Shown piece after piece: positions 22,581-33,061 of a stretch of 64,000 nucleotides of DNA. The notes under the pieces are model-generated. The model worked only from the letters and a program-made list of their open reading frames with translations, made no database searches and was not told the origin of the DNA. The stretch is from Paeniglutamicibacter sp. Y32M11. GTDB taxonomy: Bacteria > Actinomycetota > Actinomycetes > Actinomycetales > Micrococcaceae. The stretch is from the NCBI RefSeq assembly GCF_019285735.1, contig NZ_CP079107.1, forward strand, positions 4,092,001-4,156,000, written 5' to 3'. Position 1 is the first letter of the stretch; each line of letters starts with the position of its first letter. A program made the translations under genes and the position numbers.

Positions 22581-24269
22581 CTATAGGTTCGGGGAAGCCT
22601 GCTCCCGTACCTGCTTGCGTAGGATCTTGCCGAGCATCGAACGGGGTAAATCATCGATCACCACCACCCGCTTGGGAACCTTGTAACCGGCCAGCTGAAC
22701 GCGGCAATACTCGCGGATGCCCGCCTCATCCAGCGCGGCGCCGGGTTCAAGCTCCACCGCTGCAACCACCATTTCACCGCCGCGTTCCAGCGTCTTGCCG
22801 AAGACGGCAGCATCCTTGACGTCCGGGTGGGAGCGCAATACCGATTCAACCTCGGAGGGTGAGACGTTAAATCCGCCGGTGATGATCAGTTCCTTGGCGC
22901 GGTCCACGATGGTGGTGAAGCCATCTTCATCCACCGTCACCACGTCTCCGGTTCGCAGCCATCCATCGGGTGTCAGCGATTTGGCGGTTTCCTCGGGGTT
23001 ATTCCAGTATCCGGCGAACACCTGGGGTCCCTTGAGCAGCAATTCGCCGGGCTGGCCCTGCTCTACCTCAACTTCCGGATCATCCAGGTCCACGACCTTC
23101 ATCAGCGTCGAGGGGAACGGCACACCGATGGTGCCGGTACGACGCGTGGGGTGGAACGGGTTTCCCAGCGCCACAGGTGAAGACTCGGTCATCCCATAGC
23201 CCTCCACCAGCAGTCCGCCGGAGACCGATTCCCAGAGTTCAACCACCGAATCGGGCAGGTTCATGGCTCCCGAGATGCAGTACTTGGCGGAGCGCAGCGA
23301 CACGCCCTTTTCCTTGGCGGCCAGCGCCGTACGCTCGTAGATCGGCGGGACAGCGCAGTAGACGGTTGCCGGTGACTTTTTCATCGCGGCCAGGATGAGA
23401 TCCGGGTCAAATTTCGGGAAGAGTACCAACAGGCCCTGCTTCTTCACCCCGAAGGTCAGGTACAGCGTCATGCCGAAGGCATGGAACATGGGCAAGATCG
23501 CGTAGAGGATCTCATGACGCTCCTGGGCTCCTGCCATCCAGGCCTCGCCCTGCAACGCATTGGAGTACAGGTTGAAGTGTGTGAGCATGGCACCCTTCGG
23601 GGTGCCGGTGGTCCCGGAGGTGTATTGAATCACCGCGAGGTCTTCCACGGACGGACGCGGGTGGGAATCTGCGAGTCGATCGGCGCTGAGCAGTTCCTTG
23701 AAGGACATGGTGCCAGGGGCCGGGGCCGTCAGGGCATCCTTCGAGGCGCGGATCTTCTTCAGCGGCAGTTTTAAGGCAAGTCGCTTGATGGCAGGGAAGG
23801 CTTCGAGCAAATTCACCGAGATCAGCGCGTCGATGCGCACGTCCTGGGGGAACTGGCGCACCGAATCCGCTGCCTTATCCCAGGCGATCACCACGCGGGC
23901 CTGGTGGTCCTCGAATTGGTGGCGCAGCTCGCGTGAGGTGTACAGCGGGTTGTGTTCCACAACTACCGCTCCCAGACGCAGCACGGCGTAGAACGCGATG
24001 ACATGTTGCGGGCAGTTGGGGAGGATCAGGGCGACCCGGTCCCCCGCGACTACCCCGAGCCGCCGCAGTCCCTCTGCCGCGCGCGTTACCTGCTCGCCGA
24101 GTTCGCGGTAGCTGGTGCGTCGCCCAAAGAATTCGGTGGCCGGGGAATCGCCCGCCGCAGCTACGGAACGCTCAAACATCACGCTGAGCGATTCGGTGGG
24201 GAGCTCGATTTCGGCGGGGACGCCCGGCTGGTAGTTCTTGGTCCACAGGTGGGCGGAAGTATTCTCCAT
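22581..24269 (-). CDS. fadD: Long-chain fatty-acid-CoA ligase
   Basis: A 562-residue ANL-superfamily enzyme that activates fatty acids to acyl-AMP and then acyl-CoA. The AMP-binding loop IQYTSGTTGTPKGAMLTH (about residue 210), the A5 motif GYGMTESSPVALGNP, the A7/A8 motif GWLRTGDVVTVDEDGFTTIVDR, and the final catalytic Lys region RSMLGKILRKQ are intact. Length is typical for FadD. It follows panD on the same strand after 47 bases, so both may be in one transcript, although their functions are not obviously linked (pantothenate feeds CoA, the co-substrate of FadD). Confidence 0.93.
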   Translation of the reverse strand: MENTSAHLWTKNYQPGVPAEIELPTESLSVMFERSVAAAGDSPATEFFGRRTSYRELGEQVTRAAEGLRRLGVVAGDRVALILPNCPQHVIAFYAVLRLGAVVVEHNPLYTSRELRHQFEDHQARVVIAWDKAADSVRQFPQDVRIDALISVNLLEAFPAIKRLALKLPLKKIRASKDALTAPAPGTMSFKELLSADRLADSHPRPSVEDLAVIQYTSGTTGTPKGAMLTHFNLYSNALQGEAWMAGAQERHEILYAILPMFHAFGMTLYLTFGVKKQGLLVLFPKFDPDLILAAMKKSPATVYCAVPPIYERTALAAKEKGVSLRSAKYCISGAMNLPDSVVELWESVSGGLLVEGYGMTESSPVALGNPFHPTRRTGTIGVPFPSTLMKVVDLDDPEVEVEQGQPGELLLKGPQVFAGYWNNPEETAKSLTPDGWLRTGDVVTVDEDGFTTIVDRAKELIITGGFNVSPSEVESVLRSHPDVKDAAVFGKTLERGGEMVVAAVELEPGAALDEAGIREYCRVQLAGYKVPKRVVVIDDLPRSMLGKILRKQVREQASPNL

Positions 24270-24316
24270 ACTTCCATCATGCCGCCAATGAGGGGCGCTA
24301 ATAAACTTCTAGGGGA

Positions 24317-24739
24317 TTAAGCGTTGGCAAAAATCGCGAATGGCGGTGTTTCTAGGCCGTCAGTGAGCGCCTCGGCGGGATCGCTGCCCAAGGCTTTGAT
24401 GGCATTTTTGCCGTCTACGTGCACCACAGAGGGCTTGAAACTGCGGGCTTCAGCATCGCTCATGGAGGCATAGGTGATGATGATGACCAGATCGCCGATG
24501 TTGACCAGATGAGCTGCGGCACCGTTGATACCGATCACCCCCGAGCCACGTTCTCCGGCAATCGCGTAGGTCTCCAGACGGGCACCGTTGGTGACATCGA
24601 CGATGGAGACAAGCTCACCGGGCAGAATGTCGGCAGCGTCAAGCAGATCCGCATCAATGGTGATGGATCCGACGTAGTGCAGGTCAGCATGGGTGACGGT
24701 GGCACGGTGGATCTTGGACTTAAACATGGTGCGCTGCAT
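24317..24739 (-). CDS. panD: Aspartate 1-decarboxylase proenzyme
   Basis: A 140-residue PanD, which makes beta-alanine for pantothenate and CoA. The self-cleavage site Gly24-Ser25 lies in [10 protein letters not shown] exactly where the family has it, creating the pyruvoyl cofactor on Ser25. Further landmarks are [14 protein letters not shown] at the N terminus and NGAAAHL and [10 protein letters not shown] in the body. Start ATG 24739 has GGAG in the preceding purine-rich stretch; a 64-residue extension in frame is rejected. The other pan genes are not in the window. Confidence 0.95.
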
Positions 24740-25210
24740 GGGGGGATCTCCTGGAGGGGTGTAGTGCAGGCGGGGCAATCTTCCTTGACTGCCCACCTCG
24801 AGGCTCCGGTCAGGTGGAATGGGGATGAACCGGCGCCTAGGACATTCTAAACCGGCAGCCTTTGGCTTGTCTGTGACGCATTGGGGTTGGAGATCTCTGC
24901 GGTTCTTCGTTATGTATCGCGGCAGAATCAATGTGTTAACGACCGTTTAAACACCCGAATCCGTCCACTGGTTCATTGGCGGCCGGCCGGCCCCTGGCTC
25001 CCGATGCATCCGAAAACTCAGGTCACTCGCGTAATTGACTCCACCCCAGAGAATCGGTCGGCGCGAGAACGGAAGATCATGAAGCGACTTCATGACCGCC
25101 ACACCCAAAACAACAGTTTACATTGTGGGTTCAAACTCATAGTATGAGTTTCACAAAGTGGCGCTCATCACTTTATGCGCTCGCCCCCTCACCTCATGAT
25201 CGGATCCCCA
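24740..25210. other. Intergenic region between panD and the GntP operon
   Basis: About 470 bases separating two divergent units. The half next to panD has no convincing small gene. The half next to the permease holds the promoter and palindrome listed separately. No riboswitch pattern was recognised. Confidence 0.5.
25117..25151 (+). promoter_or_regulatory. Promoter with embedded 19-bp palindromic operator before the GntP operon
   Basis: A -35-like TTTACA (25117-25122) and a -10-like TAGTAT (25140-25145) are 17 bases apart. The -10 box lies in the centre of a perfect inverted repeat AAACTCATA-G-TATGAGTTT (25133-25151), so a bound protein would block RNA polymerase. The IclR-family gene at the other end of the operon is the natural candidate regulator; that link is inference. 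Confidence 0.6.
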
Positions 25211-26656
25211 ATGTCAGAAACTGCGATTCTGATCAACACCGCTGTGGCCGTCCTGGCCACAGTGCTGCTGATTGTTAGATTCAAGGTCAATCCCGTAATC
25301 GCTCTGGTCTTGGGATCGCTTTACCTCGGATTATCGACCGGGCTCGGCATCACGAAAACCATCGAAACCATCACTGGTGGATTCGGCGAGATCATGGTGG
25401 AAGTCGGATTGCTGATTGCCTTCGGCGTTCTCATGGGATCGATTCTGAACGAGACGGGTGCCATCAGGAGGCTCGTTGAGCATCTCCTACGGGTCTTCGG
25501 CCCCAAGGCCCTCCCCTACACCATGGCTCTGGCCATTGGAACGGCGCTGCAGTCGATCTTCCTTGACGTGCTTCTGGTGATTTCAGCACCTCTGGCCCGG
25601 CGCATGGCTCCAAAAATCGGCAAACTCGGAACCGCACGCATGGCTGCCGCCATGGCAATCGCCTTGGAATGTGGCATCGTTTTCATGGTTCCCGGCGTCG
25701 CATCGCTTGCCCTTGCGGGTCTACTCGGCGTGCCTCTGGGAAAAATGCTGATCTTCGGGTTCCTTGTCGTCGTCCCGACCATCATTATTTCCATCGCCAT
25801 CATGTCATTCCTGTTCAAACGAGGATTCTGGAAATCGGACCGCGATGAGCAACACCTCTTCGACGAAGAGGACTTCCCTCGGGCCACCTCCGGCACACCC
25901 CACGGACCGGCAGCCTATGGAATTTCCGCCACCGGCACAGAGTCCAGCGGCGAAAGCACGGATCTGACGGGTGCGCCCGGCACAGTAGTCGTGGCGGAAC
26001 GCGAAAAGCGGGAAGCGCCCCTCTTGCTGCTTTTCACACCGCTACTCCTCTCCTTGCTGTTGATCGGCAGTGGAGCAGTGGTTGAAATCTTTGGTCTAGA
26101 AATAGCTCCGCTGCAGCTTGTGGGCCACCCCGTCGTGGCCCTGCTGATCGGTTTGATTGGGACCACCCTGGTCGGCCGTTACACCGTGGGGCAGAAAAGC
26201 GTCGAGAACGCCATCTCCTCCGGGTTCAAGGAAAGTGGACAGATCCTCTTGCTCACCGGCGTGGGCGGATCACTTGCAGCAACGGTTGCCGCGGCGGGAC
26301 TCGGGGACATCCTTGGAGGATTCTTCTCGGCGAGCGCAGTTGCCCCGCTTCTGGTCGTTTGGGCCATTGCAGCAGTTCTTCACATCGCCGTTGGTTCCGT
26401 GACGCTCTCCGCCATTACCGCAGCAGGATTGCTGGCACCGATCGCACCCGCTCTGGGCATCGACCCGGTACTCATTGCCCTGGCCGCTGGCGCGGGCTCC
26501 CTGTTCATGGTTCACGTCACGTCCAATACCTTCTGGCTCCTGCAGTCGTTGCTGGGCCAAACGGTTCGTGGCGCACTAAAAACCGTTACCTTCGGTGTTT
26601 CCGTCGCCTCCGTGGTCGCCATGCTCGTGGTCCTGGCGCTCAGCATCTTCATCTAA
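25211..26656 (+). CDS. GntP-family carboxylate:H+ symporter
   Basis: A 481-residue permease with about 12-13 membrane segments. The early pattern FKVNPVIALVLGSLYLGLSTG, then ETITGGFGEIMVEVGLLIAFGVLMGSILNETG, and late HIAVGSVTLSAITAAGLLAP are hallmarks of the GntP/gluconate permease family. A charged loop of about 60 residues (about 205-265) divides the protein. ATG 25211 is the likeliest start, though the ribosome-binding site is poor. GntP members carry gluconate and related hydroxy acids. Because the downstream enzymes activate a carboxylate with CoA, the cargo is probably a hydroxylated organic acid rather than gluconate itself; no gluconate kinase is present. Confidence 0.88.
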   Translation: MSETAILINTAVAVLATVLLIVRFKVNPVIALVLGSLYLGLSTGLGITKTIETITGGFGEIMVEVGLLIAFGVLMGSILNETGAIRRLVEHLLRVFGPKALPYTMALAIGTALQSIFLDVLLVISAPLARRMAPKIGKLGTARMAAAMAIALECGIVFMVPGVASLALAGLLGVPLGKMLIFGFLVVVPTIIISIAIMSFLFKRGFWKSDRDEQHLFDEEDFPRATSGTPHGPAAYGISATGTESSGESTDLTGAPGTVVVAEREKREAPLLLLFTPLLLSLLLIGSGAVVEIFGLEIAPLQLVGHPVVALLIGLIGTTLVGRYTVGQKSVENAISSGFKESGQILLLTGVGGSLAATVAAAGLGDILGGFFSASAVAPLLVVWAIAAVLHIAVGSVTLSAITAAGLLAPIAPALGIDPVLIALAAGAGSLFMVHVTSNTFWLLQSLLGQTVRGALKTVTFGVSVASVVAMLVVLALSIFI

Positions 26657-26689
26657 CTTCTCTCCCACATACCTTAGGAAGTCACCCAA

Positions 26690-27934
26690 TTGTCTGAAAA
26701 CGAAATCGCACCACTGCACGGAATTAGGGTCCTGGAGCTCGGAAATTACATTGCCGCGCCGACCGCGGGCCGACTGCTGGCAGATTTTGGGGCCGAGGTC
26801 ATCAAGGTCGAACGTCCCGGAACCGGAGACGAGCTGCGCAATTGGCGGCTGAAAAAAGGCAGCGTGTCCATGCTGTACCGCACGATCAACCGCAACAAGA
26901 AGTCGGTGGTGCTCGATTTGCGCAGCGACGCCGGTCGTGCGGCCGTCCTGGAATTGGTCAAGCAGTGCGACATCCTGTTGGAGAATTTCCGTCCCGGAAC
27001 CTTGGAGAAGTGGGGTCTTGGACCCGAGGTACTCAACGCGGCCAATCCCGATCTGGTGATCACCCGGATCTCGGCCTTCGGGCAAACCGGCCCACTGTCC
27101 GAGCGCCCGGGTTTTGCGGCCGTTGCCGAGGCCTTCAGTGGTTTCCGCAATCTGGTGGGTGACCCCGATCGGGCACCGGTGCGCGTCGGCGTCTCCATTG
27201 GTGACTCCATCGCGGGTCTCTACGCGGCGTTCGGATCGGTCATGGCCTTGTTCCAACGCGAGACGCGTCGCGGCAGCGGAAGACCTATTCCCGTGCGCGA
27301 ACGCGTCATTGACGTGGCCTTACACGAGGCCATGTTCTCCATGATGGAATCGCTAGTTCCCGACCTCGGCGCCTATGGCGACAAGCGCACCCGGGTGGGC
27401 GGCCGCATGGAGGGAATCGCCCCATCCAACGCCTACGTCTGCAAGGACGGTGCCAGCATTGTGGTGGCCGGAAACGGAGACGCGATCTTCCGCCGCTACA
27501 TGGATACCATCGGACGCCCCGACCTGGGCAACGACCCGTCCCTGCAATCCAACGCCGAACGCTGGGAGCGGCGCATCGAACTTGATGCGGCCATCGGAGT
27601 CTGGACGGCAACATTGCCCTCCTCCGAGGCGCTGGCGCTGCTTGATACCGCCGGCGTTCCCGCCGGACCGATCTACACCGCACAAGACATCGTGAACGAC
27701 CCGCAATACGCGGCACGCAACATGATCCAGTCCTTCGATGTGTCCACCGGAGAGGAGATCATCAAGGATGTGGGGTTCCCCGGCATCGTCCCGGTGATCG
27801 GCGGCACCTCGTTGCCGATCCGCACCCTGGGCCCTGATCTCGGAGAACACACGCAGGAGGTGCTTGGCGGGCTGCTGGGCATGGACGCCAAACACATCAC
27901 CGCCGCATCAAACCCCGAAAGGACCCTGGCATGA
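26690..27934 (+). CDS. CaiB/BaiF (family III) CoA-transferase
   Basis: A 414-residue family III CoA-transferase. TTG 26690 is the likely start, eight bases after AGGAAG. Family landmarks are LHGIRVLELGNYIAAPTAGRLLADFGAEVIKVE at the N terminus (core VLELGNYIAAP), ILLENFRPGTLEKWGL, the catalytic Asp in RVGVSIGDSIAGLYA (about residue 173), and VPAGPIYTAQDI. It moves CoA from a donor such as succinyl-CoA to a free carboxylate. It lies 33 bases after the permease and overlaps the lyase gene by four bases, so it should activate the acid brought in by the permease to provide the lyase substrate. Confidence 0.92.
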   Translation: MSENEIAPLHGIRVLELGNYIAAPTAGRLLADFGAEVIKVERPGTGDELRNWRLKKGSVSMLYRTINRNKKSVVLDLRSDAGRAAVLELVKQCDILLENFRPGTLEKWGLGPEVLNAANPDLVITRISAFGQTGPLSERPGFAAVAEAFSGFRNLVGDPDRAPVRVGVSIGDSIAGLYAAFGSVMALFQRETRRGSGRPIPVRERVIDVALHEAMFSMMESLVPDLGAYGDKRTRVGGRMEGIAPSNAYVCKDGASIVVAGNGDAIFRRYMDTIGRPDLGNDPSLQSNAERWERRIELDAAIGVWTATLPSSEALALLDTAGVPAGPIYTAQDIVNDPQYAARNMIQSFDVSTGEEIIKDVGFPGIVPVIGGTSLPIRTLGPDLGEHTQEVLGGLLGMDAKHITAASNPERTLA

Positions 27935-28893
27935 GCCACACCCTAGAACCCCGCGCGGTGCTGCGCGATGTCACCCTGCGCGACGGCCTGCAGCTGACCG
28001 GCAAAATGCTGTCCACCGAACGCAAGGTGGAAACGGTGCGCGAACTCATCCGCCTGGGTGTGCCGGAAATCGAGTTGGGATCCATGGCCCGGGCCGATCT
28101 GGTCCCCACCATGGCCAATACCCTTGAGGTCGCCGCGGCTTTGACCGCCGAGGAACTGGAGAAGTGCTGGATCTGGGTGGCCACCCCGGGCCATGTGGCC
28201 AAGGCCGCGGCGGCTGGTCTACGCAACTTCCAGTACTGCCTCTCCGCGTCCGATGCCCACAACCAGGCGAACATCGGACGCAGCACCGAGGCCAGCCTCG
28301 CCGCCCTGCCGCAGGCCATCGAATACGCACGCGCCGTGGACGGACGCATCCAGCTCTGCATCGCCACGTCCTTCACCTGCCCGTTTGACGGGCAGGTACC
28401 CGAGCGGCGCGTCCTGGACATCGCCAATGACCCGCGCGCGGAGGGCACCTGCGACATCGTCATCTGTGACACCCTGGGACAGGCCGTCCCCGCGCAGGTG
28501 GCAAGCCTGATCTCACGAGTCCGCGACGAAACTCCGGCACGACGCATCGTCTACCACGGCCACGACACCTGGGGCCTGGGTGTGGCCAACACGCTCGCGG
28601 CCATCGGCGCCGGAGCCGGTGTTATCGATGGCGCCCTCGGTGGGCTCGGTGGTTGCCCGTTTGCCCCCGGAGCCAGCGGAAACACCTCCAGCGAGGACAT
28701 TCTCTTTGCCACCCGTCCCGAGTGGCTCGATCCGCGCGGCTTTGCCGGCTTGGTGAAACTTTCAGAGGACCTACTGAAGGAACTGGGCGAACCCAACCGC
28801 TCCAAGTCGGCCCAGGGCGCGCGGTCCACTGCCGCGGCCTTCGAGTGGGTCATTGCCTCGGACCGGGTCCCTTCCTGCGAGGGTGCGTTGTAG
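27931..28893 (+). CDS. HMG-CoA-lyase-like (HMGL family) 3-hydroxyacyl-CoA lyase
   Basis: A 320-residue DRE-TIM metallolyase. VTLRDGLQ carries the conserved Arg-Asp, YHGHDTWGLGVANT supplies the metal-binding His-x-His, and GGLGGCPFAPGASGN is the flexible loop with the catalytic Cys, all as in HMG-CoA lyase. Such enzymes split a 3-hydroxy-3-substituted acyl-CoA to acetyl-CoA plus a 2-keto product. Here no leucine-degradation genes are near; the next two genes handle hydroxypyruvate and glycerate, which suggests a substrate carrying a hydroxymethyl and a carboxyl group at C3. It overlaps the CoA-transferase and the dehydrogenase genes. Confidence 0.9.
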   Translation: MSHTLEPRAVLRDVTLRDGLQLTGKMLSTERKVETVRELIRLGVPEIELGSMARADLVPTMANTLEVAAALTAEELEKCWIWVATPGHVAKAAAAGLRNFQYCLSASDAHNQANIGRSTEASLAALPQAIEYARAVDGRIQLCIATSFTCPFDGQVPERRVLDIANDPRAEGTCDIVICDTLGQAVPAQVASLISRVRDETPARRIVYHGHDTWGLGVANTLAAIGAGAGVIDGALGGLGGCPFAPGASGNTSSEDILFATRPEWLDPRGFAGLVKLSEDLLKELGEPNRSKSAQGARSTAAAFEWVIASDRVPSCEGAL

Positions 28894-29882
28894 TGGGGGC
28901 CCGGATCCTGCTGACCACGCCCCTACCGGAGCCCGCACCGGCATTACTGGCCGCGGCCGGGGATGTGACCGTCTTGGAGGCACCGCCCAGCTATGCGGAA
29001 CTCGACGCGCTGTGCGCGAGCGGAGACTTTGATGTGGTGCTCACCCAGCTGCGCGATGTAATCGATGCTCCACTGCTGGCTCGGGCCCGGGTCCGAGGTT
29101 TCTCCAACTACGCGGTCGGCTACAACAACATCGACGTTGCCGCGGCCACCGGGCACGGCATCGCGGTGGCCAACACCCCCGGGGTGCTCACCAACGCCAC
29201 GGCCGACATCGCCATGCTGCTGATCCTGGGCACCGCGCGGCGCGTCATCGAGGCGGACCGATTGGTCCGCGAGGGACGCTTTACCGGGTGGGAACCCGAG
29301 CTTTTGCTCGGTTCCGATGTCTCCGGCAAGACCCTGGGACTCGCGGGGTTTGGGCGCATTGCCCGGGCCACGGCTCGCCGCGCGCTGGGCTTCGGCATGG
29401 AGGTCATCTTTGCCCCTCGCCCTCCCGGGAACCGGGTGGTTGACCACAAGGAGCTGGGCGAGTTCGCGGGCAAGGTGCGCCAGGTTCCGTGGGACGAACT
29501 GGTGACCGCCAGCGATTACCTGTCGCTGCATGTCCCGCTAAACCCCGACACTCGGCATCTGGTGGACGCTGTGGTGCTGAAGCGGATGAAGTCCACCGCC
29601 ATCCTCATCAACACGGCCCGCGGTCCCATCGTTGATGAGGAAGCGCTGGTCCACGCGCTGTCCACCCGAAGAATTGCCGGTGCCGGGCTGGATGTTTTCG
29701 AAAACGAGCCGGCGTTGGCGGAAGGGCTGGCCTTGCTGCCCAACACCGTCCTGCTGCCGCACGTTGGCAGCGCTACGGTGCCGGTGCGCGCCGAAATGGC
29801 GCGCCTGAGTGCCCTGAACGCCATCGCCATGGCCGCCGGTCAATTGCCCGCACATCCGGTAAACCCGGAGGTCTACGCATGA
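28893..29882 (+). CDS. D-isomer 2-hydroxyacid dehydrogenase (glyoxylate/hydroxypyruvate reductase type)
   Basis: A 329-residue NAD(P)-dependent dehydrogenase. GTG 28893 shares one base with the lyase stop (TAGTG). The substrate-binding region FSNYAVGYNNIDVAAATGHGIAVANTPGVLT (core SNYAVGYNNID) matches the GRHPR branch; GLAGFGRIARATARRALGFGM is the nucleotide-binding loop; ARGPIVDEEAL holds the catalytic Arg, and LLPHVGSAT the catalytic His. It probably reduces hydroxypyruvate to D-glycerate, since a glycerate kinase follows with a four-base overlap. Confidence 0.9.
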   Translation: MGARILLTTPLPEPAPALLAAAGDVTVLEAPPSYAELDALCASGDFDVVLTQLRDVIDAPLLARARVRGFSNYAVGYNNIDVAAATGHGIAVANTPGVLTNATADIAMLLILGTARRVIEADRLVREGRFTGWEPELLLGSDVSGKTLGLAGFGRIARATARRALGFGMEVIFAPRPPGNRVVDHKELGEFAGKVRQVPWDELVTASDYLSLHVPLNPDTRHLVDAVVLKRMKSTAILINTARGPIVDEEALVHALSTRRIAGAGLDVFENEPALAEGLALLPNTVLLPHVGSATVPVRAEMARLSALNAIAMAAGQLPAHPVNPEVYA

Positions 29883-30865
29883 GCGTGCTCATCGTCCCGG
29901 ACAGCTTTAAGGGAACGTATACGGCCGCCGAGGTTGCCGGTCACATTGCCGCCGGGGTCGGGCGTGCCGGGGGCACGGCCGTGGGGATCCCGGTGGCCGA
30001 CGGCGGCGAGGGCACCTTCGACGCACTCTGCGCCGGACTGGGTGCGGTGGAAGTGAAGGTGAGCGTCAGAAATCCCTGGGGGTCACCGGTCACCGCAACT
30101 CTGGGTCTGGCGGGTGACACCGCGATCGTCGAGCTGGCTCAGGCCTCCGGGTTGCATGTGCTCCATAATGGGGAGCGTGACCCTCTCACCGCCGACACCT
30201 ACGGCACGGGCCAGCTGATTCTCGAGGCCGTGGCGCGCGGTGCGCGGCGGGTCCTGGTCGCGGCCGGAGGTTCGGCCACGACAGATGGCGGGACCGGTGC
30301 CGTCCGGGCCATCACGCAGGCCGGCGGCCTGCACGGGGCGCAGATCATCGTGCTCTCTGACGTCACCACGAAATTCCCGGATGCGGCAAGGATTTTTGGG
30401 CCACAAAAGGGCGCGGACCCGGCCACCGTCGAGTTGCTGACGGCGAGGCTGCTGGAGCAGGCGCGCACCTTTCCCCGCGACCCTTCAGATGTCGCGGGAA
30501 CCGGGGCTGCGGGCGGTTTTTCCGGCGGATTGTGGGCGCACTTCGGGGCGGAACTGGTCTCGGGCGCAGAGTTTGTGCTTGATGCGGTGGATTTTGATCT
30601 GCATCTTGCCCGCGCCACCGCCGTGGTGGTCGGCGAGGGTCGGCTTGATGGGCAGAGCATGGGTGGAAAGATAATTTCGGTGGTTTTGCAGCGGGTGGCT
30701 GCCCTGGCACCGCAGGTGCCGGTGTTTGCGGTAGTGGGTTCGATTGGTGCGGACCTCGGAACGGCCCGCAGCCACTTTGCCGATGTCATGGTGGCCTCCA
30801 CGCCGGCGGACATGGTCAGGGCCGGCCTGGAGATTCAGGCAGTTCTGCGCCAGCCGGCCATCTAG
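29879..30865 (+). CDS. Glycerate kinase, GlxK/GarK type, compact
   Basis: A 328-residue glycerate kinase with VPDSFKGTYTAAEVA at the N terminus, PVADGGEGTFDAL, AGGSATTDGGTGAVRA, RIFGPQKGA, GAAGGFSGGL and VVGEGRLDGQSMGGK, all family signatures. Compared with E. coli GlxK/GarK (about 380 residues) about 30 residues are missing between the TDGGTG motif and the SDVTTKF strand. All recognisable catalytic motifs remain. It would convert D-glycerate to 2-phosphoglycerate. Its stop codon overlaps the convergent IclR stop within the palindrome CTAG (30862-30865). Confidence 0.9.
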   Translation: MSVLIVPDSFKGTYTAAEVAGHIAAGVGRAGGTAVGIPVADGGEGTFDALCAGLGAVEVKVSVRNPWGSPVTATLGLAGDTAIVELAQASGLHVLHNGERDPLTADTYGTGQLILEAVARGARRVLVAAGGSATTDGGTGAVRAITQAGGLHGAQIIVLSDVTTKFPDAARIFGPQKGADPATVELLTARLLEQARTFPRDPSDVAGTGAAGGFSGGLWAHFGAELVSGAEFVLDAVDFDLHLARATAVVVGEGRLDGQSMGGKIISVVLQRVAALAPQVPVFAVVGSIGADLGTARSHFADVMVASTPADMVRAGLEIQAVLRQPAI

Positions 30866-31665
30866 CTGCGGGGTGCCGCGGCTTCCCCGGGGAACCGTCC
30901 ACCAATTAAGCGGGTCATTCGTTCGGCGGTCTCCAGCAGCGGCTCGATCCATTCTTCGCACACCGAGCGGGGCATGCGCATGGTGGGGCCACTGATGGTC
31001 ACCGCGGCAACCAGCCCCGCCGCCGCGTCGAACACCGGGGCAGAGAGCCCGGAGGCACCGTTCTCCCGTTCCCCGGTGGTGATCGCAAAACCGTCTGCTC
31101 GGGTTCTCGAGATTGCCTCGCGCAGATCCGCGGCACTGGTGATGGTGGCTTCGGTGAAGTGCTCCAAGGGGGCGTCAAGCACCACGCCCTGGAGGTCGGG
31201 GTTCCACGCAAGTAGAACTCGTCCGGCGGACCCTGCATGCAGTGGTGCGAGTTTTCCCAGGTGCATCTCACGGCGCAAGGCGTGCCTGGTTTCGGCCATC
31301 CCGACGCAGACCCGGTACTGCGCCTCGGCGCGGAAAAGGCAGGCCGTTTCGCCCGTGATGTCGCGCAGGTTTGCCAGGAGCGGGTTGATCACGTCGAGGA
31401 CTTCCTTGCCGCGCGTGGCCGGGGCGGCCCAGTAGGCCATTTTCATGCCGATACGGAAGGCATCACCGTCCCGGTCGAGGAACCCCTGGCCCACCAGGTT
31501 GGCCACTAGTCGTTGGACGGTAGAGGTGGGCATCCCGGTGGCCACCCGGATGTCCGTCAGAGAAAGCACCGGCTGACGCAAAGAAAAAGAGTCAAGAATC
31601 GAGCTGATCTTGCCGAGCACAAGGAGCGGGTTCTGATTCTTGGTGGGTGATTCGGCCTTCGACAT
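30862..31665 (-). CDS. IclR-family transcriptional regulator
   Basis: A 267-residue IclR-type regulator. The winged helix-turn-helix (about 14-75) reads ILDSFSLRQPVLSLTDIRVATGMPTSTVQRLV, with core GMPTSTVQRLVANL. The effector domain (about 90-255) has LRREMHLGKLAPLHAGSAGRVLLAW and TTGERENGASGLSAPVFD, which contact small acids in this family. It is convergent with, and overlaps, the last gene of the GntP operon, so it is the obvious local regulator. The palindrome at 25133-25151 is a plausible binding site. Confidence 0.93.
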   Translation of the reverse strand: MSKAESPTKNQNPLLVLGKISSILDSFSLRQPVLSLTDIRVATGMPTSTVQRLVANLVGQGFLDRDGDAFRIGMKMAYWAAPATRGKEVLDVINPLLANLRDITGETACLFRAEAQYRVCVGMAETRHALRREMHLGKLAPLHAGSAGRVLLAWNPDLQGVVLDAPLEHFTEATITSAADLREAISRTRADGFAITTGERENGASGLSAPVFDAAAGLVAAVTISGPTMRMPRSVCEEWIEPLLETAERMTRLIGGRFPGEAAAPRS

Positions 31666-32017
31666 AAACCTGACGCTAGACGATGGGGCCGTGAGCGTCC
31701 AATCAGTTTGCGCTAAGGGTTCTGGACCACGGTTCCGTGCGTCGCCTCTGGGCCCTATTTTCGGCCGTGCGAAACCGCGCGGTCCTGCTCATTGAACGTT
31801 CCGTCGTCCACTGGCTATTTTCGAACTCAACGATATCCACCGCCGCATGGACGCTGGGAGGCCCTATTGGTACCCCTTTCGGCGGGGCCTCCCTCGAGGT
31901 GGGCCGGACGTGATTTGATGGAGGAGTACCCGAGCCGTCACATCGGTCGGATACGCACGTGGCTTGGTGAACAACCGGTCCCATTGCCTAAACATCGCCA
32001 TACATTGATGGAGAATC
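31666..32017. other. Intergenic region between the IclR gene and the alcohol dehydrogenase
   Basis: About 350 bases that must hold the divergent promoters of both neighbours. An open frame of 77 codons crosses it but overlaps the dehydrogenase start and has no ribosome-binding site. I see no structured RNA or further gene. Confidence 0.4.
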
Positions 32018-33061
32018 ATGCTTGAAATCAACACCTACGCAGCGACATCCGCGACGGGCGACTTGGTCCCCACCCGCATTACCCGTAGGGACGTCGGTCC
32101 CCACGACGTGCTGATTGACATCAAGTTCTCCGGGATCTGCCATTCCGACATCCACACCGTCCGCGGCGAGTGGGGAGATCAGCAATACCCGTTGGTCCCG
32201 GGCCACGAAATTGCCGGAATTGTCACCGAGGTCGGATCGGAAGTCACCCGCCATTCAGCGGGCGATCGCGTCGGTGTGGGCTGCATGGTTAATTCCTGCC
32301 GCGAGTGCGTCAATTGCCTGGCCGGCGAAGAGCAGTACTGCTTGGCTGGAAACATCGGGACCTACGGCGCCAAAGACGTTGATGGAACCATCACGCAGGG
32401 CGGCTACGCCACCCACGTTGTCGTAAATGAAGACTTCATCGTGCGCATCCCCCAAGGCTTGGGATTGGACGTTGCCGCCCCACTGCTTTGTGCCGGTGTC
32501 ACCACCTATTCGCCGCTGAACCACTGGAATGCGGGTCCGGGCAAGAAGGTTGCCGTCATTGGACTCGGTGGCCTTGGCCACATGGCCGTGAAGATTGCCC
32601 ATGCCATGGGCGCTGAGGTCACCGTCCTGTCGCGCTCGCTCAAAAAGCAGGAAGACGGACTGAAGCTGGGCGCCGATCACTACTACGCGACGGAAAATCC
32701 CGAAACGTTCGAAGCCCTTGCCGGATCCTTCAACCTGATCATCAACACCGTCAGCGCGAGTATCGACATCAGCGCCTTCCTGCAGCTGCTGTCCTTGGAC
32801 GGCGCGTTGGTCAACGTCGGCGCTCCGGCCGAGCCGCTGCCAGTCAACGCCTTTGCGTTGATTACGGGTCGTCGTTCCTTTGCCGGATCGATGATCGGCG
32901 GCATCCGCGAGACTCAGGAAATGCTTGATTTCTGTGCCGAGCACAAAATTGGTGCCGAGATCGAGGTCATCTCCGCCGAAGATATCAACAAGGCTTACGA
33001 GCGAGTCCTCGCCTCGGATGTTCACTACCGCTTTGTGATTGATACTTCGACACTGGTCTAG
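32018..33061 (+). CDS. Zinc-dependent NAD(P)-alcohol dehydrogenase
   Basis: A 347-residue medium-chain dehydrogenase of the cinnamyl/YahK-like group. Catalytic zinc ligands are in GICHSDIH (Cys about 41) and PGHEIAG (His about 63); structural zinc ligands are in [17 protein letters not shown]; the coenzyme site is [19 protein letters not shown] precedes the ATG by five bases. It would interconvert primary alcohols and aldehydes in the cytosol. It is monocistronic and not clearly tied to the operon before it. Confidence 0.93.

Follow-up and report, generated by a model that had tools for sequence, protein, structure and literature searches.

The window analysed here is a stretch of 64,000 nucleotides from the genome of the soil bacterium Paeniglutamicibacter sp. 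Y32M11 (4.17 Mb, single contig). It carries a run of five genes on the + strand (25211-30865), followed by a convergent gene for an IclR-family regulator. We propose, at a probability of roughly one half, that this operon serves the dedicated catabolism of a 2-substituted malate, most likely itatartarate (2-hydroxymethylmalate). A GntP-family permease would import the diacid, and a CoA-transferase would put CoA on its CH2-COOH end, the donor probably being succinyl-CoA or the acetyl-CoA formed later. A lyase related to 3-hydroxy-3-methylglutaryl-CoA (HMG-CoA) lyase would cleave the CoA ester by a retro-aldol reaction to acetyl-CoA and hydroxypyruvate. The latter would be reduced to D-glycerate by a dehydrogenase and then phosphorylated by a glycerate kinase to phosphoglycerate (2-phosphoglycerate for enzymes of the Escherichia coli type). 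The IclR protein would control the operon via a palindrome over its promoter. The reaction type is fairly well supported. The proposal builds on the gene set and its families, a clade-specific lyase pocket, hydroxypyruvate-reductase residues, co-inheritance and a conserved single-copy operator motif, all found by computation; from these we infer every reaction, the substrate, the transport and the ligand of the regulator.

An earlier note on this DNA had described five overlapping or nearly touching genes with a convergent IclR gene, and had assigned a family to each of the six. Both descriptions were borne out, the families by profile matches (Table 1). The permease and CoA-transferase genes are separated by a 33-base gap, and 4-base overlaps join CoA-transferase to lyase, dehydrogenase to kinase, and kinase to the convergent IclR gene. 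The first plausible start of the dehydrogenase, the GTG at 28893, touches the lyase stop; its residues are numbered here after P0004, from a start at 28887, two codons before this preferred GTG. The permease scored 208.9 against the gluconate model TIGR00791, below the cut-off of 292.75, and is the probable importer of the acid. For the CoA-transferase, all seven matched NCBIfam models stayed under their cut-offs, the best being the succinate-glutarate, oxalate, formyl and mesaconate CoA-transferases, so that no named identity (oxalate, formyl, mesaconate, glutarate or carnitine) reached the required score. Its solved relatives include the succinate-hydroxymethylglutarate CoA-transferase 9br6, and it carries Asp172 in the motif IGDSIAG, presumably the active-site Asp. 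Neither an itaconyl-CoA hydratase nor a CitE-type lyase was identified among the six operon genes.

Table 1. Features of the operon and its promoter region (positions in the window).
Feature	Position	Strand	Remarks
Promoter-like pair TTTACA-17-TAGTAT, -10 hexamer within palindrome	25117..25145	+	weak alone: 2 sites found vs 1.2 expected from shuffles
Perfect palindrome AAACTCATAGTATGAGTTT, 19 bases, probable IclR operator	25133..25151	.	
GntP-family permease, 481 aa	25211..26656	+	PF02447 227 bits, cut-off 22.5
Family III CoA-transferase, 414 aa, TTG start	26690..27934	+	PF02515 368 bits
HMG-CoA-lyase-like TIM-barrel lyase, 320 aa, of a discrete clade	27931..28893	+	
GRHPR-type D-2-hydroxyacid dehydrogenase (predicted hydroxypyruvate reductase)	28893..29882	+	PF02826/PF00389
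Glycerate kinase, short form, 328 aa	29879..30865	+	PF02595 265.1 bits vs 23.3; TIGR00045 232.6 vs 168.45
IclR-family regulator, 267 aa, convergent	30862..31665	-	PF01614 + PF09339

Relatives of the operon were compared in three sets. The 101 related loci comprised the 80 nearest lyase matches, 20 regions from drawn genomes and one more; as the 80 were the best 80 of 119 lyase relatives in a contig scan, this set is biased to near kin. It includes duplicate organisms with identical rows (L013/L152, L037/L156 and L077/L159) and two loci with a partial lyase only (L166, L167). A less biased sample consisted of 149 genomes drawn from the family, and 14 lyase loci, with about 6 kb of flank each (less in L148), served as the outgroup control.

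The lyase has the TIM-barrel fold of HMG-CoA lyases. Residues R17, D18, H209, H211, C242 and N251 were kept in every ingroup lyase row with letters at these positions; we take these Arg-Asp, His-x-His, Cys and Asn residues to be the catalytic motifs of HMG-CoA lyase. A53, R54, T149, G210, W214 and T252 were nearly fixed in the ingroup and differed in the outgroup lyases (R54 in 11 of 14). The SFV..P loop of other lyases, and the residue between their two active-site histidines, were found to be replaced in the operon lyase. Judged from sequence, the lyase belongs to a discrete clade in which catalytic residues are kept and pocket residues changed. It scored 191.5 bits against the HMG-CoA lyase model NF004283, below the curated cut-off of 246, and HMG-CoA lyase proper was rejected on this score, the pocket loop and the gene context. 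A lyase match with one in-frame stop was also seen at L067:8001-8915; the stop probably reflects gene decay or an error in sequencing.

The grouping of the genes is not due to chance, since 98 of the 101 related loci had a CoA-transferase no more than 2 kb from the lyase, 35 had a dehydrogenase near it and 11 had a kinase. The gap between lyase and dehydrogenase was at most 120 bases in 33 of those 35; L019 was scored positive for dehydrogenase and kinase despite having its dehydrogenase in pieces. In the outgroup, a CoA-transferase accompanied 13 of the 14 lyases (L149 had none), and dehydrogenase, kinase and GntP were found with none, by which a generic CoA-transferase-lyase pairing was rejected as the explanation. 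Among the 149 family genomes, 28 had the lyase, and by coordinates the dehydrogenase adjoined it in 8 of these. A dehydrogenase of at least 73% identity occurred in 9 genomes, all with the lyase; a more distant one (E 1e-90) occurred in 20, of which G460 alone had the lyase. Distances between dehydrogenases correlated with those between lyases (r 0.93, n = 34), as did those between kinases (0.90, n = 11), both values exceeding all 2000 permutations. The dehydrogenase, where present, has followed the lyase in descent, and this co-inheritance spans Micrococcaceae, Nocardia, Rhodococcus and Mycolicibacterium. The minimum numbers of changes on the lyase tree (dehydrogenase 13, kinase 10, GntP 20) imply that the three genes come and go; the broken dehydrogenase of L019 and the GntP remnants in L021 and L030 point to losses.

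The nearest solved relatives of the dehydrogenase are archaeal glyoxylate/hydroxypyruvate reductases. The Pyrococcus enzymes are described as more efficient on hydroxypyruvate, with a network around its hydroxymethyl group that includes Trp138, Ser291 and Arg297 (PMC4749974). The published network consists of Leu53, Trp138, Arg241, Glu270, His288, Ser291 and Arg297, and the window dehydrogenase has all seven residues (L55, W135, R245, E272, H292, S295, R301). Six of these sites were invariant in 34 of 34 operon dehydrogenases and the Leu was present in 33; the Trp was kept in just 8 of 13 copies outside the operon. Against the glyoxylate reductase model NF009714 the enzyme scored 291.3 bits, below the cut-off of 455. 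It may be added that a different D-2-hydroxyacid dehydrogenase (38%) adjoins a full-length glycerate kinase at G400:C43:311851-313921. An aminotransferase near the dehydrogenase of L118 was considered as a clue to the substrate and set aside as uninformative, being of the aspartate type.

The kinase has no match to profile positions 148-180. Relatives with 56 and 59% identity (L128:5135-6136 and L135:5040-6026) close LacI-MFS-SDR-BKACE operons, a gene set that we read as one for deoxyribonate catabolism. On that reading the short form would be a working D-glycerate kinase, since mutant fitness shows that deoxyribonate catabolism needs glycerate kinase (PMC6365646). The genome of the window itself has a further short glycerate kinase at G000:C1:3837462-3838328. 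A dehydrogenase-kinase pair was also seen beside a LysR gene, away from the lyase, at L123:2027-3993; its genome, G546, also has the lyase with an adjacent dehydrogenase. The DAO gene near that pair was rejected as a serine oxidase, since it resembled sarcosine/N-methyltryptophan oxidases.

Hydroxypyruvate is the best reading of the keto acid because the lyase clade is distinct, the dehydrogenase and the kinase are absent from the outgroup loci, and the seven network residues are present; the balance of probability tips towards it as the lyase product. If it is formed by retro-aldol cleavage, a single carbon of the CoA ester must bear all three of OH, CH2OH and COOH; with acetyl-CoA as the partner, that ester would be itatartaryl-CoA. 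The earlier note had put forward this cleavage, followed by reduction to glycerate and phosphorylation; the network residues and the kinase context support it, and the presence of dehydrogenase and kinase in only a minority of loci counts on the other side. It had also named 2-hydroxymethylmalate as the acid. This stands as the simplest fit, with other 2-substituted malates or a glyoxylate-yielding acid still to be reckoned with, and we set the chance that itatartarate is the substrate at about even.

The stereochemistry fits itatartarate. A Cahn-Ingold-Prelog (CIP) derivation showed that (S)-HMG-CoA, (R)-citramalyl-CoA and (S)-itatartaryl-CoA have one spatial arrangement: replacing CH2COOH by COOH in (S)-HMG-CoA gives that of (R)-citramalyl-CoA, and replacing CH3 by CH2OH in the latter gives (S)-itatartaryl-CoA. 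The TIM-barrel lyases take (S)-HMG-CoA (PMC6689899), and the lactone made by fungi is (S)-2-hydroxyparaconate (PMC9875883).

The promoter region carries a 19-base palindrome, AAACTCATAGTATGAGTTT, which has no other occurrence in the genome when up to 3 mismatches are allowed (control, 0). Of the 101 relatives, 30 have its form ACYCATANTATGRGT, with at most 1 mismatch, in the 300 bases before the first gene, and the other 71 lack it at that stringency; the background was 28 of 4820 stretches of 320 bases across the related loci, promoter sites included. A repressor that acts on this operon alone is likely, and we infer that the adjacent IclR protein is this repressor. A 2-hydroxyparaconate lactonase was sought through the regulon, and since the palindrome is single in the genome, there is no second member by that measure. 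No tandem repeats were found in 24000-33000. In a plasmid collection three records matched at E 1e-30, with annotated genes under the match in none of the three.

A number of results weigh against the proposal. The dehydrogenase is missing from 66 of the 101 related loci and the kinase from 90, so the two cannot be essential to the role of the lyase everywhere; they are accessory parts, and there may be several substrates across the wider clade. Even L005, from Paeniglutamicibacter terrestris of the same genus (lyase at G498:C1:1240443), has a lyase 98% identical and neither gene. In the dehydrogenase tree, copies outside the operon, from genomes with and without the lyase, fall among the operon copies. 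The BKACE proteins of L128 and L135 exceed the NCBIfam cut-off for 3,5-dioxohexanoate cleavage, an activity other than that of the deoxyribonate enzyme for which we take them. In L064 (Nocardia nova; L064:4699-6747) and L150 (from the genus of the window; L150:6533-8560), the gene immediately upstream of the CoA-transferase belongs to the aconitase family (69% identity between the two). In L150 it is accompanied by a gentisate-dioxygenase-like gene, which scores below the model cut-off, and a gene of the maleylpyruvate-isomerase family; in L064 there is a gene weakly similar to homogentisate dioxygenases. These contexts suit citramalate or malate better than itatartarate: hydratases of this kind could convert maleate to (R)-malate or citraconate to (R)-citramalate, the latter possibly as part of the breakdown of a substituted gentisate.

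If hydroxypyruvate is formed, a genome whose operon has no dehydrogenase or no kinase should possess another enzyme for the missing step, an expectation that could have failed. Among the lyase genomes without the operon kinase, a PF02595 kinase was found elsewhere in 30 of 30 (base rate in the phylum, 138 of 197). The mere presence of a D-2-hydroxyacid dehydrogenase was worthless as a test, because 60 of 61 family genomes match at E 1e-25, many at the size of SerA. Tartronate semialdehyde reductase (TSR) exceeded its cut-off in 12 of the 22 dehydrogenase-less genomes, each time beside a hydroxypyruvate-isomerase-like (Hyi-like) gene; a TSR-like match of some strength, including those below the cut-off, occurred in all 22. 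Hyi-like genes gave some match in 16 of the 22 and reached the curated cut-off in none. Among these 12, G424 also holds, elsewhere in its genome, a dehydrogenase that shares 75% identity with that of the window; in G416 (L076) a different D-2-hydroxyacid dehydrogenase lies next to the operon, divergent from GntP; and G409, G414, G422 and G423 have other matches without a clear role. A possible route was seen in all six GntP-type dehydrogenase-less genomes: L005, L010, L012, L014 and L047 with TSR over the cut-off beside a Hyi-like gene, and L076 with its different dehydrogenase. The Hyi and TSR counts carry no control set. Against the proposal, 5 of the 22 (G408, G410, G412, G413, G419) have no recognised hydroxypyruvate route: their one dehydrogenase match at E 1e-25 has the size of SerA, TSR stays under its cut-off, and nothing Hyi-like was matched. 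Their loci lack GntP and belong to the pair-only, ABC, TauD or aconitase types.

Other neighbours vary as well. A TauD-family dioxygenase, which could form a tertiary alcohol by hydroxylation, lies upstream of the pair in seven Nocardia-type loci (L059, L072, L073, L074, L079, L083, L169), and NMT1-type ABC binding proteins occur near eleven related loci. These contexts, and those with aconitase-family genes, would all agree with cleavage of 2-R-malyl-CoA by the clade, R differing between its members; the operon with reductase and kinase would be the version in which R is CH2OH. In L169 a P450 gene lies just downstream of the lyase. All 8 of the outgroup loci L137-L144 have a homogentisate-dioxygenase-like gene, at a distance of 3.1-3.7 kb from the lyase.

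It is unlikely, although not negligibly so, that the core of GntP, CoA-transferase, lyase and IclR serves to break down (R)-citramalate into acetyl-CoA and pyruvate, with dehydrogenase and kinase as a separate, co-expressed hydroxypyruvate/glycerate module. GntP and IclR without dehydrogenase or kinase occur in 18 of 102 rows, a set that would be self-sufficient if the product were pyruvate; the detached pair of L123 and the aconitase-family neighbours of L064 and L150, which could supply citramalate, also agree with it. Chloroflexus pairs a family III succinyl-CoA:citramalate CoA-transferase with an HMGL-type (R)-citramalyl-CoA lyase, resembling the window in enzyme pairing and, by our CIP derivation, in substrate arrangement, and differing in that its product is pyruvate. 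The closest solved lyase, 6nds, contains by its title CoA and the C5 diacid 3-methylmalate, and this suits citramalate as well as the glyoxylate-yielding acids considered next. The co-inheritance of dehydrogenase and lyase, their short spacing and the absence of the dehydrogenase from the outgroup argue against two independent modules. An acid of the malyl-CoA or 3-methylmalyl-CoA type that yields glyoxylate, with the dehydrogenase as glyoxylate reductase, is improbable: of the 36 rows with a dehydrogenase (window included), 24 show no kinase in the vicinity, and GRHPR enzymes reduce both glyoxylate and hydroxypyruvate (PMC4749974), a further point against our proposal, but the glycerate kinase would be left unexplained, reduction to glycolate would be an odd catabolic step, and the residues associated with the hydroxymethyl group, Trp135, Ser295 and Arg301, do not vary among the operon copies.

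Hydroxypyruvate might also come from a larger or different 2-hydroxymethyl diacid, with an extra group on the CH2 carbon and an acyl-CoA product other than acetyl-CoA. The present data do not fix the acyl-CoA product, and the pocket of the clade has many changes; to our knowledge, however, no such larger diacid is common in nature, and we consider this quite improbable. Itatartarate, by comparison, is already known from fungi (PMC11626831, PMC9875883). It is highly improbable that free 3-hydroxy-3-methylglutarate is degraded via HMG-CoA to acetyl-CoA and acetoacetate. The family and fold of the lyase and the kinship of the CoA-transferase would allow it, but the lyase score and the replaced loop and inter-histidine residue speak against it, and a 2-keto-acid reductase and a glycerate kinase would be senseless with acetoacetate. 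Taken whole, a dedicated actinobacterial pathway for (S)-itatartarate, with itatartaryl-CoA, a new specificity in the HMG-CoA lyase family, acetyl-CoA and hydroxypyruvate, D-glycerate, phosphoglycerate and an IclR protein confined to one operon, is a tentative scheme whose odds fall just short of even.

Under the itatartarate proposal, the operon would be a version of the CoA-transferase/lyase route with a reductase and a kinase added. The Pseudomonas itaconate route (Ict-Ich-Ccl), whose lyase is CitE-like, is similar in that a CoA-transferase activates a branched C5 diacid and a lyase yields acetyl-CoA and a 2-keto acid. It differs in that its lyase cleaves (S)-citramalyl-CoA (PMC12290011), of the opposite arrangement, and that a hydratase step is needed, whereas the window operon has an HMGL-type lyase, no hydratase, and a keto acid reductase and kinase. 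This opposite arrangement would fit the report in de Witt 2023 that its Pseudomonas strains did not grow on a 2-hydroxyparaconate/itatartarate mixture alone (PMC9875883). HMG-CoA lyases (human HMGCL, bacterial MvaB; PDB 3mp5, 1ydo, 2ftp, 6nds) share fold and catalytic residues with the window lyase and differ in substrate-pocket residues and gene context. The Pyrococcus and human glyoxylate/hydroxypyruvate reductases share all seven network residues (PMC4749974), the window enzyme differing by its score below the NCBIfam family cut-off and its place in an operon. For oxidative deoxyribonate catabolism, the proposed last part also involves glycerate, glycerate kinase and acetyl-CoA (PMC6365646). 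The earlier note knew of no described bacterial pathway with this gene set, and we found none in the openly licensed full-text literature, a scope that omits most subscription papers. Within that literature, as far as its text was available, no description of CoA activation or CoA-dependent breakdown of itatartarate was found, nor any mention of hydroxymethylmalate, hydroxymethylmalyl, itatartaryl or 2-hydroxymethylmalic. A lactonase making itatartarate has been described, with the speculation that itatartarate might be dehydrated, decarboxylated and rehydrated to give 2,4-dihydroxybutyrate (PMC9875883). Itatartarate can also be made from 2-hydroxyparaconate by saponification (PMC11626831).

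The proposed pathway is linked to fungi through (S)-2-hydroxyparaconate, an itaconate derivative that they make and that gives (S)-itatartarate on hydrolysis. If the proposal is true, the loop on this metabolite would be closed; its formation and the bacterial lactonase step have been reported, and growth on itatartarate has not, in the available text of the sources. The HMG-CoA lyase fold would gain a new specificity, and biotechnology an enzyme route for itatartarate and possibly a sensor (IclR with the palindrome). The proposal would also bear on the contest between itaconate-making fungi and bacteria suggested by PMC11626831, and it would give a named substrate to a gene set present in many actinobacteria.

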